In this document: positions 3,556 through 19,547 of the stretch, piece after piece
Layout of the letters: each line of letters opens with the position of its first letter
Position numbering within the stretch: the first letter of the stretch is position 1
Virus record (IMG/VR): IMGVR_UViG_3300030116_006111
Location: 1-27,446 of that record
DNA length: 27,446 nt
Direction: 5' to 3' (one strand)
DNA from: a virus
Program-made: the position numbers and the translations under genes
The notes under the pieces: model-generated
Database searches by the model: none
Seen by the model: the letters and a program-made list of their open reading frames with translations, nothing else
Told to the model about the DNA's origin: nothing

Positions 3556-4137
3556 ATGGCTAATTTATTCGATACCGATAATGCACCAACACTTGAGCCA
3601 GATAAAATAGTTATCGGTGATCGAGTAACGTGGAGGAAAAAAAACCTCGCAGTCGATTATCCATCATCAGCATATAGTACCGAGTATGTTTCAAAGTTAT
3701 CGACATCACCTACAAGTGAATTTAAGGTTTCTGGTTCTGCGGACGGTAATGACTATTTATTCACAATAGCATCAACTGCGTCTGTAAATTTCGATAACGG
3801 TCATCACCATTGGCAACTAGAGATTGTTAGAACTTCTGATTCTGAAAGGATCGTAATCCAGACGGGTTCCTGGGATGTAATAACGGACCTGGATAATAAT
3901 GTTGATCCTAGAGATCATGCCGAAATCATGGTTGATAAGATTGAAAGTCTGCTGGAAGGTAAAGCAGATGGAGATGTTCAGTCGTATTCAATAGCGGGAC
4001 GATCATTAACAAAATTTTCTCCAGAGGAACTGTTGCATTGGAGGGAATACTACCGTCGCGAGGTAGTTAATAAACATCGTTTGGAAGATATTAAAAATGG
4101 ACGAGCCACAAGCGGCACAATTAAGGTGCGTTTCTAA
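3556..4137 (+). CDS. Head-tail connector-like protein: beta-rich N-terminus plus gpW-like C-terminus
   Basis: A 193-residue protein between terminase and portal, where lambda has the gpW connector. The last 50 residues (SYSIAGRSLTKFSPEELLHW and onward) look like a gpW-type or similar small head-completion domain: a beta hairpin with the 'GRSLTKFS' turn followed by a basic helix. The first 120 residues are different, beta-rich and serine/threonine-rich, with a segment FNDGHHHW-like around residues 80-90, and resemble an immunoglobulin-like or fibre-type sandwich. No family name can be given for that part. Head completion is inferred from the C-terminal domain and position. The stop overlaps the portal start by one base (TAATG). 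Confidence 0.6.
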   Translation: MANLFDTDNAPTLEPDKIVIGDRVTWRKKNLAVDYPSSAYSTEYVSKLSTSPTSEFKVSGSADGNDYLFTIASTASVNFDNGHHHWQLEIVRTSDSERIVIQTGSWDVITDLDNNVDPRDHAEIMVDKIESLLEGKADGDVQSYSIAGRSLTKFSPEELLHWREYYRREVVNKHRLEDIKNGRATSGTIKVRF

Positions 4138-5609
4138 TGGGGTTACTAGATATTTTTAAACGTAAGGAACAACCGAAAATTCGTAAAAGAAATTATGCTG
4201 GTGCGAGAGGTGGGCGTTTATTTGGTGACTTCATCCAATCAAGTAACTCAGCAGATGCAGAACTTAGATTTACCCTGGAGGTCATGCGAAACAGATCGCG
4301 TGAACTTATCAGAGATAATGAATTTGCCAGGAGATACATTCACTTACTTAAAACAAATGTGATTGGAGATCACGGTTTTCATCTGCAAGTCAAAGCCAGA
4401 AATGATGATGGATCATTAGATGGTTTCGGAAATACCGTTATTGAAAATTCATGGAAACGCTGGGGTCGGCTTGGGAATCCTACCTCTGACGGACGGATGA
4501 GTTGGTTTGATTGTCAGCGGTTAGCGATTGAAAGCCTTGCTAGAGACGGTGAAGTTTTCATTAAAAAGGTTTCTGGATCAAGATATAAAGATGGGTTTGC
4601 TCTGCAATTTATTGAAGCGGATCTTGTTGACGAGAAGAAAAACGAAACTCTGCCAAATGGCAACGAAATTCGAATGGGCATTGAGATTGATAGATTTCAT
4701 AAGCCTGTTGCTTATCATGTTCTATCTTCTCATCCAGGTGACAAGTATTTTCATTCTGCGAAATCAAGAAAACATTCACGAGTGCCAGCCGATGAAATAA
4801 TTCACGTTTATATGCCCAATCGAACCCATCAAACTCGTGGTGAGCCGTTTATGGTTTCTGCGATGTCTGCTTTGAAAATGCTAGGGGCATATCGTGAGGC
4901 TGAAGTCATTGCGGCTAGAATTTCAGCATCAAAGATGGGAGTTATTACGACACCGACAGGGGATGAATTTGTTGGGGAGGGATTAGAGAACGAACACACT
5001 CCCGTGATAGATGTGGAGCCTGGGTCTTTCTACCAATTAAACGCAGGTCAGAAACTAGATCCGATTGATTTTGATCATCCGAATAGTTCTTACCCAGAGT
5101 TTGAGTCTGCGATGCTGCGAGGTATTTCATCAGGCTTAAACGTAAGCTATGCAGCCCTATCGAGTGATCTATCTAGCGTTAATTATTCCAGTATTAGACA
5201 GGGTGCGCTAGACGAACGTGACGGATACAGAACTTTGCAGATGTTTATGATTCAACATTTTGTAGAGCCAATTTTTAGAGAGTGGTTAACATCCGCACTT
5301 AGTTTCGGAGATATGAATCTGCCTATCACAAAATTTGATAAGTTTTCGGACAATGCGTATTTCCGCGGAAGAGGATGGAATTGGGTTGATCCCTTAAAAG
5401 AAATAAATGCTGCGGTGATCGGATTACAGAATGGTATCTTGTCAATGCAAGATGTAAGCGCAGCGTACGGTAGAGATGTTGAAGAGACCTTTGCGCAAAT
5501 TTCACGCGATAAAGAGACGGCTGCACAATATGGCCTAAATATGGCGTTTGAGCCGTTTGGCCAGAAGTTACCCGCAGAGCCAATAGTTGAGGGTGGCGAT
5601 GGCGACTGA
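4137..5609 (+). CDS. Portal protein, lambda gpB family
   Basis: A 490-residue portal that forms the dodecameric ring at the capsid vertex through which DNA enters and leaves. The family signature is clear: an N-terminal block LRFTLEVMRNRSRELIRDNE near residue 45, the GDHGFHLQ strand, the DGEVF segment, the central IHVYMPNRTHQTRGEPFM block near residues 222-239 (residues before the crown and clip), and SGLNVSYAALSSDLSSVNYS near 332-351, which is diagnostic of lambda-type portals. Length is close to lambda gpB (533). The start is coupled to the preceding connector gene, and the 3' end overlaps the next gene by 11 nt. Confidence 0.95.
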   Translation: MGLLDIFKRKEQPKIRKRNYAGARGGRLFGDFIQSSNSADAELRFTLEVMRNRSRELIRDNEFARRYIHLLKTNVIGDHGFHLQVKARNDDGSLDGFGNTVIENSWKRWGRLGNPTSDGRMSWFDCQRLAIESLARDGEVFIKKVSGSRYKDGFALQFIEADLVDEKKNETLPNGNEIRMGIEIDRFHKPVAYHVLSSHPGDKYFHSAKSRKHSRVPADEIIHVYMPNRTHQTRGEPFMVSAMSALKMLGAYREAEVIAARISASKMGVITTPTGDEFVGEGLENEHTPVIDVEPGSFYQLNAGQKLDPIDFDHPNSSYPEFESAMLRGISSGLNVSYAALSSDLSSVNYSSIRQGALDERDGYRTLQMFMIQHFVEPIFREWLTSALSFGDMNLPITKFDKFSDNAYFRGRGWNWVDPLKEINAAVIGLQNGILSMQDVSAAYGRDVEETFAQISRDKETAAQYGLNMAFEPFGQKLPAEPIVEGGDGD

Positions 5610-8319
5610 CTTTCCCAATAAAGGTGATGATAAAAAAATCAGTTTGCGCAATAGCGAATATCCGCAATTTGATTATGATTTTTCTGCGAATATAAAAAGG
5701 TATAATCCAGAAGTTTGGCGTTTAGGTGGCAACATTCGGGGGAATGAGGCTTTTAATTTCTGGACAAAAGCACGGAATGAGGAGTTCACGGAGGGAACTT
5801 TAGATTGGATTAAAGAGCGTGAGGCGTGGGCAGCACGTCATTTTGGGGATGGGTCACAGTTTAAAAGTGGGGGTTTGGAGCCTAACAAATCAAACGTAGG
5901 CGGCGTGGTTGCACAAATGAAATGGGGAGTGATTGGGACTCTGGGTGAGCAGGGAATGAAGGATGTGATTCTTGAATTGATAAAAAAACTTGAAGGCAAA
6001 AAAGACGATGAAAGAGGTTTTTCTGATTTAAGTTCATCTATTCAAGAGGGATTAAGGAACAAAGTAAAAGAACACAACGAAGAATATGGGGATGACCCAA
6101 ATAAAAGAACTAACGTCAGAACTCTTGCAGCGGTATTCGAAAGAGGTGTAGGAGCATATCAAAACAACCCTGGAAGCGTTCGACCAGGGGTAACAGGTCC
6201 AGATCAGTGGGCATATGCTCGCGTAAATTCTTTTTTGTTTGCTTTGAGGAATGGAAGATTCCAAGGGGGCAAACATGACACAGACCTACTTCCAGCGGGT
6301 CATCCAGAAAGCACAAAGGAAAGGAATCAGGTTCAAGATATGGAAGAAAGACACGTTCAAGAAGTAGTAGAAGATGATGAGACAGTAACCATCGTTTTCA
6401 AAAAAGCGCATGACGAAACAGAAGAGATGGAAGAGGGTGGTATGGATGAACCCGATGAGGAGCGTATTGATCGGGATGATCTTACTTATCGTTATTCTCA
6501 TATGCACGAAAAAGCCATCGATGAAGATAAACGAACAGTCAGGGTTGGAGTATCTTCAGAGGAGCCAGTAAAAAGGGCTTCTGGAATGGAAATAATTGAT
6601 CATACTAAAGAGAGTATGAATTTAGAATTTTTAAACAGCGGTCGCGCCCCACTGCTCATGGATCATGATATGGAGCGTCAAATCGGTGTAGTAGAATCTG
6701 TGGAGCTAGATGAGGATGCGCGGCGTCTCCGTGCTTTAGTTCGTTTCGGAAGAAGCGAAACGGCCTCTGAGGTTTTCACTGATGTTGTCGATGGTATTCG
6801 ACAAAACATAAGCGTAGGCTATCGGGTTGATGGTCGCGTGGAGCGGGACCACGAGGAAGATCATGAAGATTATTACCGCGTGGCCACCACTCCCATGGAG
6901 ATAAGCCTTGTTTCAATTCCTGCTGATCAGTCAAATCAAGTAGGGGTAGGCAGGTCTGTTTCTGAACCTTTAAAAACCGTAGAAGTTATCTCAGAAAGGA
7001 GTAATGAAATGTCTGAGGAACAAAATGTAGATCTGGAAGCGGTAAAGGCAGAAGCTGCCAAAACTGCCCAGCGAAACGCCAAAGAAATTATGACTTTGGC
7101 TAGAAGACACAACAAAGCTGACTTAGGTGAGGATGCGCTTGGTCGTGGTATTTCTGCTGATCAATTCCGTGGTGAACTTTTGGACGCGATTGGTAATGAA
7201 CCTTTAGAAACTCCAGCCCATGTTGTTGATGCACCTGTAAAGGACCAGCGGGAGTATAGCCTTGGAAGAATGATCAGAGCGCAAGCCTCTGGTGATTGGT
7301 CTGATGCGGGTTTCGAGCGAGAAATGCACGATGAAATTCGGCAGCGAACAGGTAAAGCGGCTAGAGGCTATTATGTGCCTGATTTCGCATGGAGATCAGG
7401 AGCAATGTCAACGGCTGCAACTGGAGCGACAGGCAGTGAAAATGTAACTGACAGTTTCGTGCCAACCATTCACAGAGGCGATATGTTCATCGAGGCACTT
7501 AGAGCAAATGCTGTGATGGCAAATCTCGGTGTGATGTTTATGAGTGGTTTGACTAATCGAATTCAAATCCCAAAATTTAGCACGGGTGCAACGGCTGGAT
7601 TTGTTGAGGAACTTGGCAACGTAGCTGATCAATCTCAAACAGATGCTTCAGTGAATTTACAACCCCGTACGATGGGGGCGTTTGCTGATATATCGAGACT
7701 TTTATTGAAAGAGTCAATTCCAGCTATTGACCAGGTTGTTCAGGATGATTTAATTCGGTCACTTGCCTCCAAACTTGAAGCGGTTGGTATTAACGGATCT
7801 GGTTCATCGGGTGAGCCTACAGGCATTCTTAATGCTGCTGGAGTTGGTGACGTTGATATTTCCGCTGATACTGATGTCGCTGCTTTAACTTGGGCTGATT
7901 TAACTAATTTGGTCAAAACTGTTGAAGATGCTGATGGTATTGTAAATGCGAATACCCTTGGGTGGTTAAGTAATCCAAAGGTCAAAGCAAAGATGGCCAA
8001 TACTGTAAAGGTATCTAGCACGGATAGCATCATGCTTTTGAATGACCCCTGGAATTCAATTTATGGGTATCCTGCTGAGTTTACGACAAACGTACCATCA
8101 AACCTGAACCCAGGTGATGGTGGAACGGATGCAAGTGCGCTCATTTACGGAGATTTCTCTCAGTTGATGGTCGGGTTATTTGGTGCGCCAGATATCTTAA
8201 TTGATGAAACAACTGGTGGCCTTGCGGGAACCGTGAGGATCATTGTTCACCAAGACGTGGATATCGCACTGCGTAATGCTGCATCGTTTGCTAAAACTGA
8301 TGAAGTATCAACTGCTTGA
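5599..8319 (+). CDS. Three-part head polypeptide: unknown N-domain, prohead protease, HK97-fold major capsid protein
   Basis: One uninterrupted 906-codon frame covers three units that phages usually encode apart. Residues about 20-236 are an uncharacterised domain with conserved-looking blocks YNPEVWRLGGNIRGNEAF, SNVGGVVAQMKWGVIGTLG, WAYARVNSFLFALRNGRF and GKHDTDLLPAGHP; I recognise this pattern from phage proteins of unknown role. Residues about 237-296 are an acidic linker. Residues about 297-455 are an HK97-type (S78) prohead protease, with the candidate catalytic His in LLMDHD (His 356) and Ser in PMEISLVSIPAD (436 or 439). From residue 471 comes an HK97-fold capsid protein with a charged helical delta region at 475-500. 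ATG 5599 follows GAGG at six bases; TTG 5587 is less likely. It overlaps the portal by 11 nt. A strong internal ribosome site precedes the capsid part. Confidence 0.9.
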   Translation: MATDFPNKGDDKKISLRNSEYPQFDYDFSANIKRYNPEVWRLGGNIRGNEAFNFWTKARNEEFTEGTLDWIKEREAWAARHFGDGSQFKSGGLEPNKSNVGGVVAQMKWGVIGTLGEQGMKDVILELIKKLEGKKDDERGFSDLSSSIQEGLRNKVKEHNEEYGDDPNKRTNVRTLAAVFERGVGAYQNNPGSVRPGVTGPDQWAYARVNSFLFALRNGRFQGGKHDTDLLPAGHPESTKERNQVQDMEERHVQEVVEDDETVTIVFKKAHDETEEMEEGGMDEPDEERIDRDDLTYRYSHMHEKAIDEDKRTVRVGVSSEEPVKRASGMEIIDHTKESMNLEFLNSGRAPLLMDHDMERQIGVVESVELDEDARRLRALVRFGRSETASEVFTDVVDGIRQNISVGYRVDGRVERDHEEDHEDYYRVATTPMEISLVSIPADQSNQVGVGRSVSEPLKTVEVISERSNEMSEEQNVDLEAVKAEAAKTAQRNAKEIMTLARRHNKADLGEDALGRGISADQFRGELLDAIGNEPLETPAHVVDAPVKDQREYSLGRMIRAQASGDWSDAGFEREMHDEIRQRTGKAARGYYVPDFAWRSGAMSTAATGATGSENVTDSFVPTIHRGDMFIEALRANAVMANLGVMFMSGLTNRIQIPKFSTGATAGFVEELGNVADQSQTDASVNLQPRTMGAFADISRLLLKESIPAIDQVVQDDLIRSLASKLEAVGINGSGSSGEPTGILNAAGVGDVDISADTDVAALTWADLTNLVKTVEDADGIVNANTLGWLSNPKVKAKMANTVKVSSTDSIMLLNDPWNSIYGYPAEFTTNVPSNLNPGDGGTDASALIYGDFSQLMVGLFGAPDILIDETTGGLAGTVRIIVHQDVDIALRNAASFAKTDEVSTA
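6995..7011 (+). promoter_or_regulatory. Internal ribosome binding site and start for the capsid protein
   Basis: AAAGGAG at 6995-7001 stands seven bases before an in-frame ATG at 7009-7011, inside the protease/capsid frame. It is one of the best ribosome sites in the window. The protein that would begin there (MSEEQNVDLEA...) starts exactly where an independent major capsid protein should, at its helical delta region. This suggests that free capsid subunits are made in excess of the full-length fusion. Confidence 0.75.
7009..8319 (+). CDS. Major capsid protein (product of internal start)
   Basis: A 436-residue HK97-fold major capsid protein, in the same frame as the fusion. The order is an N-terminal helical delta/scaffold region (first 100 residues), the N-arm and E-loop region, and the P and A domains. 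Recognisable segments are TDSFVPTIHRGDMFIEALR, the strand block RIQIPKFSTGATAGFVEE, the AFADISRLLLKES helix start, and INGSGSSGEPTGILN, a hallmark of this family. Length fits HK97 gp5 plus delta domain. Processing by the protease encoded upstream would remove the delta region. Whether the fusion, the internal product or both are made needs protein data, but the ribosome site argues that this shorter form is the main one. Confidence 0.7.
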   Translation: MSEEQNVDLEAVKAEAAKTAQRNAKEIMTLARRHNKADLGEDALGRGISADQFRGELLDAIGNEPLETPAHVVDAPVKDQREYSLGRMIRAQASGDWSDAGFEREMHDEIRQRTGKAARGYYVPDFAWRSGAMSTAATGATGSENVTDSFVPTIHRGDMFIEALRANAVMANLGVMFMSGLTNRIQIPKFSTGATAGFVEELGNVADQSQTDASVNLQPRTMGAFADISRLLLKESIPAIDQVVQDDLIRSLASKLEAVGINGSGSSGEPTGILNAAGVGDVDISADTDVAALTWADLTNLVKTVEDADGIVNANTLGWLSNPKVKAKMANTVKVSSTDSIMLLNDPWNSIYGYPAEFTTNVPSNLNPGDGGTDASALIYGDFSQLMVGLFGAPDILIDETTGGLAGTVRIIVHQDVDIALRNAASFAKTDEVSTA

Positions 8320-17321: not shown

Positions 17322-19547
17322 ATGGCTGACAAAAAGGTTTCTGAATTAGACGCGATTACTGGAGCAAACACAGCAGCAGATGATTTTTTTCTGATCGTAG
17401 ACAGCAGCGGCTCTGTTAGCAAAAAGATAAGTAAAGATGAGTTGAGTAATGCGGTTGGAATCGGTGCAACCGTTGACATTAATGGTGGGACCATTGACGG
17501 CACTACAATCGGCGGGTCCAGTGCCGCTGTGGGTACGTTCACTACTGCGAATGCTACTACCTTAGACACAACAAATATTGAAGTGACAAATATCAAGGCG
17601 AAAGATGGAACCTCAGCTGGATCAATAGCAAATTCAACTGGTGTAGTTACACTTTCATCCTCAGTTTTAACAACTACTGACATAAACGCTGGAACTATAG
17701 ATGGAACTACGATTGGCGGGTCCAGCGCGGCTGTTGGAACTTTCACTACTTTGAATTCCACCACATTAGATTCAACAAATATTGAAGTCACAAATATAAA
17801 AGCTAAAGATGGAACTGCTGCTGGTTCTATTGCTGACTCCACAGGAGTTGTGACTTTAGCTAGTTCAGTTCTTACGGATACCGATATTAACGGTGGAACT
17901 ATTGATAATGTAACTTTAGGTGCTGCAACTGCTGGCGCGGGAACATTTACCAGTTTAAACGCTACAACTGCTGATATTAATGGGGGAACTGTCGACGGTG
18001 CGGATATCACTGTTGGCTCTGGAAAGACACTGAACGTATCAGCGGGAACTCTTACCCTCGCAGACAATCAAATTTCAGGAAATAAAATTGATGGAGGTAC
18101 GATTTCATCATTTGCGTCAACTGGGATAGATGACAATGCTTCTAGCACAGCCATAACAATCGATTCAAGTCAAAGGGTTGGAATTGGAGCAACAAGCGCA
18201 ACAAATGATGCTCTGCTAACTATCAGAGATAGTGGAACCACTAACCCAATGGCGCGAATCTCATTTGATAGTGGGGACTCAGGGGTCACCAATGGCGTGA
18301 AGCTGGGATACACCGCTGCTACCTTCGCCCCCGATTTTGAAATCAGCAATGGTGATGCGGGTATTATTAGATTTTCAACTAATAATACTGAAAGAATTCG
18401 TATAATGAGCGGAGGTAATGTCGGTTTAGGAACTACTGCACCAGATGTACCACTTCATGTAAAAGGTGGGAGTAGTGTAGAATCAGCAATTATAGTTGAC
18501 AGTACAGGCGTCGGTGGTGGACACAAGTACGGCATTCGTCCTGGATCGCCAGGAACTAGCAATGGACATTTTACTATTCATGATGAAGTAAATAATGCAA
18601 CGAGACTAGCTATTACAGATGGCGGACTCGTGTTAATTAACACAACTGCGGCTATTGCTAATCATCAATTAAGAGTTCACGGTGGAAGTTCTACTGGTGC
18701 TATTGCAATTACAGCGGCCACCAACATGAATAGCACAATTAGTTTTGGAGACCCAGCAAATAGCTTAATAGGTCGAATTGAGTACGCCCATAATGGCGAT
18801 CAAATGCGGTTTTTTACAAACGGTAGTCAACGTATGGTTCTTGACCAGTTCGGTCGCCTATTCATACGAAAAACAACTGCAGGTCTTACGCTTTCAGGGG
18901 TTGAAAATAACTTTTCGGCTGACAATGGCTATTTCGCGGTAACCAGCACGGGAGCATCATTTCACTTAAACAGACAAAGTTCAGACGGTGCTCTTGCAAC
19001 CTTTAGGCATAATAATGTGACAGAAGGTAGCATATCTGTATCTGGCACTACTGTATCCTTTAATGGTGGACACCTTTCACGTTGGTCACAAGCCTCAGAC
19101 GGCAACCGCATCGATGGCTTGCTCAAAGGGACGGTCATGACCAATCTGGATCAGATGGCTGTTTGGACCAGTGAGGATGGCAGCACAACTAAAGATAACG
19201 AGCAATTAAACTGCATGGCTGTGTCATCTGAAGAAGGCGATAAAAATGTGGCTGGGGTGTTTGTAAATTGGAATGAAGATAGAAATGAAGACCTGAACGA
19301 CATTTACGCAAGTAGTGCGCAAAACGATATGAATATTGCAATGACAGGCGATATGGTTATTCGCATCGCTAGTGGCACAACAATAGCCCGAGGTGACTTG
19401 CTGATGAGTGCGGGCGATGGCACAGCCAAGCCGCAGGGTGATGACATTGTTCGTAGCAAGACTATTGCAAAGGTCACCAGCACAAATGTTTCATATACTT
19501 ATAGCGATGGGTCATACCTTGTGCCGTGTGTACTAATGGCGTGTTAG
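17322..19547 (+). CDS. Long tail fibre with repeats and self-cleaving (peptidase G2-like) C-terminus
   Basis: A 741-residue fibre. It starts with an adaptor-like segment (KKVSELDAITG...DDFFLIVD), common to fibres that dock onto another tail part. From residue 52 there are two full 68-residue repeats beginning D-I-N-G/A-G-T-I-D-G, then partial copies near 188 and 218: a beta-helix-like shaft. A middle region (260-590) has GIGATS and GLGTTAP motifs also seen in fibre shafts. The last 150 residues (GHLSRWSQASDGNRIDGLLK, GDLLMSAGDGTAKPQGDDIV) resemble the intramolecular chaperone/peptidase G2 group, which cuts itself off after trimerisation. The nearby RSKTIAKVTS segment has the usual form of this domain. 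Host specificity probably lies between shaft and C-terminus. Confidence 0.88.
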   Translation: MADKKVSELDAITGANTAADDFFLIVDSSGSVSKKISKDELSNAVGIGATVDINGGTIDGTTIGGSSAAVGTFTTANATTLDTTNIEVTNIKAKDGTSAGSIANSTGVVTLSSSVLTTTDINAGTIDGTTIGGSSAAVGTFTTLNSTTLDSTNIEVTNIKAKDGTAAGSIADSTGVVTLASSVLTDTDINGGTIDNVTLGAATAGAGTFTSLNATTADINGGTVDGADITVGSGKTLNVSAGTLTLADNQISGNKIDGGTISSFASTGIDDNASSTAITIDSSQRVGIGATSATNDALLTIRDSGTTNPMARISFDSGDSGVTNGVKLGYTAATFAPDFEISNGDAGIIRFSTNNTERIRIMSGGNVGLGTTAPDVPLHVKGGSSVESAIIVDSTGVGGGHKYGIRPGSPGTSNGHFTIHDEVNNATRLAITDGGLVLINTTAAIANHQLRVHGGSSTGAIAITAATNMNSTISFGDPANSLIGRIEYAHNGDQMRFFTNGSQRMVLDQFGRLFIRKTTAGLTLSGVENNFSADNGYFAVTSTGASFHLNRQSSDGALATFRHNNVTEGSISVSGTTVSFNGGHLSRWSQASDGNRIDGLLKGTVMTNLDQMAVWTSEDGSTTKDNEQLNCMAVSSEEGDKNVAGVFVNWNEDRNEDLNDIYASSAQNDMNIAMTGDMVIRIASGTTIARGDLLMSAGDGTAKPQGDDIVRSKTIAKVTSTNVSYTYSDGSYLVPCVLMAC
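17475..17882 (+). repeat. Two tandem 204-bp repeats in the fibre gene, with partial third and fourth copies
   Basis: Copies start at 17475 and 17679 (period exactly 204 bases, 68 codons), with a partial third from 17883 and a shorter copy from 17973. The protein repeats are nearly identical while many synonymous positions differ, so they are old, selected protein repeats rather than a fresh duplication. Confidence 0.85.

Follow-up and report, generated by a model that had tools for sequence, protein, structure and literature searches.

What does an additional region do in front of a prohead protease that is itself fused to a major capsid protein? This question is raised by a single open reading frame of 906 codons on the plus strand of the window (the whole stretch of viral DNA analyzed, 27,446 nucleotides), which runs from the ATG at 5599 to the stop codon at 8317-8319; an in-frame TTG at 5587, upstream of this ATG, would give 910 codons if used as the start. 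The original prediction had placed three units in this frame, and this is borne out by the ORF itself, by matches to Pfam, PHROG, and NCBIfam models, and by 190 related frames. Reading these sequences, we propose, at a probability of about 0.5, that the capsid gene at this locus is nested, giving two products, and that its N-terminal cassette is exchangeable. The relevant features, all on the plus strand, are as follows.

4137..5609, +: lambda-family portal gene (Pfam PF05136, E = 5e-94), with an 11-nt overlap with the start of the fusion
5599..8319, +: 906-codon frame with module A, module B, S78 protease, delta-like segment, and HK97 capsid protein, an order shared by 190 related frames
5599..5997, +: module A (residues 1-133), all-helical, swapped for A' in relatives; basis, alignment, model, and swaps
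6031..6318, +: module B (residues ~145-240), DUF5824-like, helical; basis, Pfam PF19141, survey, and model
6334..6486, +: acidic linker at the junction of modules and protease, net charge -17
6487..6963, +: S78 prohead protease; basis, Pfam, NCBIfam TIGR01543, and motif positions
6996..7001, +: Shine-Dalgarno-like AAGGAG, 7 nt 5' of the internal ATG
7009..8319, +: predicted second product of 436 aa, starting at the internal ATG (Met471), with delta-like segment and capsid protein
7009..7317, +: delta/scaffold-like segment (residues 471-~573) between the protease and capsid matches; approximate boundary
7318..8316, +: HK97-type major capsid protein (residues ~574-906); basis, Pfam PF05065 and TIGR01554

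Protease and capsid protein in one frame

The Pfam Peptidase_S78 model (PF04586) matches residues 347-450 (E = 1.3e-8; 35.6 bits against a cut-off of 21), and the Phage_capsid model (PF05065) matches residues 627-899 (E = 9.2e-30; 104.4 bits against 24.2; model positions 10-277 of 280), in keeping with the NCBIfam matches TIGR01543 and TIGR01554 in the same frame. The PHROG family phrog_617, “major head protein,” covers residues 298-903 (E = 5e-111), leaving about 297 N-terminal residues outside. The protease carries the motifs PLLMDHD at residue 351 and NISVGYR at residue 403; from knowledge of the S78 family, we take His356 (codon at 6664) and Ser405 (codon at 6811) to be the likely catalytic residues. 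As the His motif (PLL..H) is kept in 189 of 190 relatives and the Ser motif in all 190, their conservation suggests that the fusion protease is active. The segment that sits between the two matches, residues 471-~573, is delta-like and, by analogy with the delta domain of HK97, could act as a delta or scaffold segment. A tripartite protease-scaffold-capsid gene is present in Salmonella phage Gifsy-2.

With residues 1-249 as the query, 594 related stretches were found in viral contigs, and we retained the 80 best; among these, 50 contig-complete frames and a further 10 that run off the 3' end of their contigs have the order A-B-protease-capsid. In all, 190 related frames start with A or A' and contain both the protease and the capsid protein, these contig counts including many related contigs. 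The recurrence of the fused frame in many independent IMG/VR contigs excludes a sequencing error or frameshift as the source of the fusion, and no hidden stop need be invoked between its parts.

The joining of a protease to a capsid protein is itself known, as the original prediction had stated: there is an NCBIfam model for it, and it has been reported in Rhodobacter and Paracoccus phages (PMC8601537; PMC6536676), with Lactococcus phage c2 cited for such a fusion in the Paracoccus phage paper. Like the window, these fusions (NF045541; phrog_617; phages phiHAP-1, VP882, and ep3; the Rhodobacter RcC cluster) encode an S78-type protease and, after it in the same frame, an HK97-type capsid protein; unlike the window, seven distant members have none of the modules A/A', B, C, and D described below ahead of the protease. 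The cut-off of the NF045541 model, which describes the prohead protease/major capsid protein fusion, is not reached by the window (140.1 bits against 525, over model positions 1-291 of 634).

Among cultured phages, the CRP-822-type Roseobacter phages (PMC12629253) are nearest and have an identical gene order, namely, terminase, portal, fusion, head, and tail genes. In the window, the order is a gpA-type terminase gene, a small gene, the portal gene, and the fusion gene, and by this order of packaging and head genes with a fused capsid gene, taken alone, the window fits the CRP-822-type group. CRP-406 and CRP-822 are 60-64% identical to the window over the protease-capsid part; these phages differ from it in having A' in place of A, and CRP-822 also has B and C. 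The main text of the paper on the CRP-822-type phages contains neither “protease” nor “fusion” (PMC12629253). In the open-access literature that we searched, the cassette and the nested start look undescribed, in contrast to the joining of protease and capsid protein.

Modules ahead of the protease

The region ahead of the protease had been described as one uncharacterized domain of about 215 residues. The region is indeed uncharacterized, but it comprises two separable modules, A (residues 1-133) and B (residues ~145-240), and residues 172-214 of the latter match DUF5824 (PF19141) marginally (E = 1.3e-5; 25.8 bits against a cut-off of 25). This match is confined to 43 residues, about one-third of the model, and among relatives it falls below the cut-off in L003, L055, and L077 and above it in L041. 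That A and B are two modules follows from the occurrence of each without the other. In a Methanohalobium MAG contig (L084), A precedes what we read from the sequence as a prohead protease, with B not recognizable; conversely, B is found in many loci after A', and T4-like phage proteins carry it too, behind an N-terminus that looks like a nucleotidyltransferase. The AlphaFold model of A and B together is all-helical, with a mean pLDDT of 80.

Profiles were built for A, A' (a module of about 100 residues), B, C (“RPYPNEHAARI...”), the Cys-rich D, the protease, and the capsid protein, and every frame in 251 loci was searched with them. Modules B, C, and D are optional in these frames, B being optional where A' is present. 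Module D (KCANCVAFD...GYCWMHHFKC.SARTCHTWAKGG), an insert found between module C and the protease in L077 and L081 and present also in L064, has no match in Pfam, NCBIfam, or PHROGs and looks like a small iron-sulfur or metal-binding domain.

Module A likewise has no match in Pfam, NCBIfam, or PHROGs, known scaffold domains included. A sequence search against solved structures gave no match (best E of 1 for A2 and 2.1 for A4), and Foldseek found none with E < 1 in the PDB. The top structural match of module A is the C-terminal ORFan domain of Mimivirus R596 (3td7; PMC3509050), with Z of 6.9, 118 aligned residues, an rmsd of 4.5, and 10% identity, for a fold class in which helical background Z can reach about 13; with no sequence match between the two, this chance-range resemblance of a predicted model is a lead only. 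Structure matches of A'-B-C (VIA) were weak, the best (Z = 5.1) falling on module C. In a local hhalign comparison without realignment, A and A' (the phrog_2859 region) aligned over 53 columns with E of 0.0043 (control pairs, 0.13-0.42) and a probability of only 8%; they share GG..G, RH, G, and W columns and a similar order of helices and may be distantly related.

Because the modules recall polyvalent proteins and MuF-portal fusions, in which shuffled domains are borne by head proteins for which packaging is predicted (PMC5512222), they could be anti-host effectors injected at infection. Such packaged multidomain proteins are already known, and the exchangeable modular arrays of the fusion resemble them (PMC5512222). 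Nevertheless, we consider an effector role unlikely: the effector domains described for polyvalent proteins were not found in the window fusion, and in Pfam, NCBIfam, and PHROGs the modules matched no described effector, enzyme, or anti-defense family, but only DUF5824 and one uncharacterized PHROG. The strong conservation of A and B also fits an arms race poorly, identities being 76% and 73%, respectively, at a capsid identity of only 38%, values that are inflated by the selection of loci on the N-terminal region. In the range of 60-90% capsid identity, A' and the protease are conserved to about the same degree. As many loci were chosen by N-terminal similarity, we do not take greater conservation of the N-terminus than of the rest to be a fact free of selection.

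Exchange of the first cassette

Every frame with an intact 5' end, a protease, and a capsid protein among the 251 loci starts with A or A', never with both. The original prediction had suggested surveying related phages for the domain. When loci were picked by protease-capsid similarity alone, all 61 with an intact N-terminus carried A (1 locus) or A' (60 loci); hence, the region is not unique to the phage of the window. On a capsid tree of 174 tips (FastTree), the minimum numbers of changes are 11 for A/A', 25 for B, and 21 for C, counts that errors in the tree could inflate.

The exchange is seen most directly in L055 (A-B-C) and L227 (A'-B-C), the protease-capsid parts of which are 93.5% identical. 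At the DNA level, the two are 84.5% identical up to the gene start and 83.8% identical from within B onward, with about 460 nt in one replaced by about 367 nt in the other between these points, so that the swapped stretch begins at the start codon and extends into module B. A second pair, L078 and L219, shows the same pattern. The window itself, with its near-identical relatives L004 and L092 set aside, is about 80% identical over the protease-capsid part to A'-B frames such as L094 and L096. Judging from these alignments, module A is a cassette exchanged for A' among relatives. Divergent capsid types are also joined to similar N-termini, which suggests that the capsid part has been exchanged too. 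Between the window and the A/B-fronted frames of L027 and L043, for example, the capsid halves are about 35-38% identical and the N-termini 65-80% identical.

A conserved internal start signal

The ATG at 7009 (Met471) is preceded by AAGGAG at a spacing of 7 nt; by contrast, GAGG is all that precedes the start of the gene itself at 5599. In the alignment column of Met471, ATG is present in 184 of 190 rows, and a Shine-Dalgarno-like motif of at least 4 nt precedes it in 182 of these 184; the motif is seen at 0-4% in five other conserved Met columns and at 71% at the gene's first codon. When the best ATG anywhere in the protease-capsid linker is taken, 189 of 190 relatives have the motif, against about 93 expected from sampling synonymous codons with the same peptides and codon usage, an observed value helped by the choice of the best ATG; the test on the Met471 column is the cleaner one. 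Of 109 distinct cases, 97 have 6-8 nt between motif and ATG, and the motif falls in each of the three codon phases, with differing peptides. This clustered spacing and the independence from phase and peptide point to selection acting on the RNA at the internal start. The predicted unpaired probability is 0.53 at internal starts versus 0.41 at other ATGs, with a value of 0.68 in the window. At the same site, CRP-822 and CRP-811 have AAGGAG and CRP-406 has GGAGG, the corresponding Met being residue 537 in CRP-822 and residue 356 in CRP-406, and in relatives the linker Met is followed by an acidic helical stretch. A comparable linker ATG was found in only one, VP882, of the seven distant protease-capsid fusions checked, from which the internal start appears to be tied to the window's phage group rather than being general to such fusions.

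We regard the internal start as very likely to be real, and, because an equivalent start is found in 189 of 190 relatives, the gene probably also yields a 436-residue capsid precursor alone. The alternative is a single product, with each capsid subunit made as a 906-residue chain that is trimmed later and with the internal ATG unused. This would agree with the frame being open throughout and with the reporting of other phages' protease-capsid fusions as single proteins (PMC8601537; PMC6536676), but it leaves unexplained a strong, position-specific start signal conserved at the RNA level across varying peptides and codon phases, and about 560 extra residues per subunit would be expected to crowd the prohead; we hold it to be improbable.

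A second product would bear on where the extra region goes. It had been predicted to be carried inside the capsid by virtue of its linkage to the protease and capsid protein; the reasoning is sound, but it assumed one product, and with the separate capsid precursor implied by the ATG at 7009, the extra region need not ride on every capsid subunit. A role as an internal scaffold, also suggested for it, becomes the weaker option, since a delta-like segment is already present in both predicted products, the internally started one included, making a further scaffold of A and B less necessary.

A possible second internal start lies ahead of the protease (“M..RHI.NV.ET”; e.g., residue 136 of CRP-406, L090), with the motif in 109 of 137 cases versus 62 expected. 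We make no claim for it: the window has no Shine-Dalgarno-like motif at its Met248, and the Lys/Glu-rich peptide partly explains the signal.

Proposed nested gene and its function

From the sequences, we infer two products, their ratio, their placement in the prohead, release by cleavage, and roles for the modules, as follows. Initiation at 5599, with its weak GAGG, would give the 906-residue polyprotein with A, B, the S78 protease, the delta-like segment, and the capsid protein, and initiation at 7009, with AAGGAG at 7 nt, would give the 436-residue delta-capsid precursor, probably in excess, leaving the full fusion as the minor, protease-bearing product. The shared capsid part would put few polyproteins among many plain precursors in the prohead shell, and this coassembly would bring the protease and modules A and B inside the prohead. 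At maturation, the protease would cut off the delta segments and release itself and the modules. The A/A' and B modules would then most likely be inner-head proteins, which may stay in the head or exit with the DNA.

If so, an abundant group of marine phages meets a dosage problem, that of few proteases and many capsid subunits, by means of a single nested gene, and the capsid protein itself loads other proteins into the head, suggesting a natural route for loading proteins into phage heads. More tentatively, we suggest that the capsid domain of the rare long product serves as its address label, by which the protease and an exchangeable small-protein cassette are taken into the head, that most of the shell comes from the internal start, and that A/A', B, C, and D constitute a mobile inner-head family of bacterial and archaeal tailed viruses.

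Other settings of the modules

The other contexts of the modules bear on whether they act as free inner-head proteins or as parts of assembly, and we give the former about an even chance. A' is found at the N-terminus of protease-capsid proteins in Synechococcus phages S-CBS1/3, within the protease of Pontimonas phage phiPsal1, within portal-MuF proteins of haloarchaeal viruses HRTV-4 and HRTV-28, at the C-termini of portal-like proteins (L240, L244, and L250), and, in a Vibrio phage, on a protein encoded between the MuF and capsid genes. Its structure matches in BFVD comprise prohead proteases, XkdF, portal, gp29-like, ParB, and other proteins. In Salinibacter phages, A and B stand ahead of a protease-like region (weak in Pfam, E = 0.08) without a capsid protein. 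The presence of A' on portal-MuF, protease, and protease-capsid proteins and of A on the proteases of L084 and the Salinibacter phages argues for an inner-head role. Against this, A' is also free-standing, in phages PaBG, SCTP-2, and S-CBS4 and on a Rhodobacter plasmid, and lone copies in jumbo phages and alphaproteobacterial plasmids, remote from head genes, indicate that inner-head placement is not its sole context.

With the slot filled in all relatives, an assembly role is equally compatible with this distribution. A/A' and B might act before maturation, for instance, as an element that binds the portal or nucleates assembly and recruits the polyprotein to the portal vertex. The occupancy of the slot in 61 of 61 relatives would fit this, as would the module's position at the portal/protease junction in unrelated viruses (at the portal C-terminus in L240, L244, and L250, in portal-MuF proteins, and at the protease N-terminus) and the conservation of A and B, which is no less than that of the protease. 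However, ep3, phiHAP-1, VP882, Mica, RcCronus, Alexa, and S-LBS1 have short N-termini before the protease, A' stands free away from head genes, and A and A' are interchangeable despite very different sequences; we therefore consider an assembly role rather unlikely. Whichever role they have, the A/A'/B/C family lies at the portal-protease-capsid junction in many bacterial and archaeal tailed viruses, making the exchangeable cassette a concrete target.

In a prophage-like contig (L085, ~8000-8300), module A spans the junction of portal and MuF, the match being divided over two overlapping frames and interrupted by a stop; a search for A' in 195 genomes of the same phylum gave no match and was uninformative. 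In L245 (3814-4341), A' forms the C-terminus of a small protein encoded between the protease and capsid genes and is preceded by a block, YSVVSNHPECEGYAVVKSDTNELLGCHKT, which we take to be one that also occurs in other phage head proteins. BFVD places A' on a ParB-like protein as well. In the window, the stretch 92-1291, just 5' of the terminase genes, encodes a DNA N6/N4 methylase with a fused ParB N-terminal domain. Further downstream, 17322-19547 encodes a protein of 741 residues with an imperfect repeat block (DINGGTIDGTTIGGSSAAVGTFTT...), which is probably tail-fiber-like.
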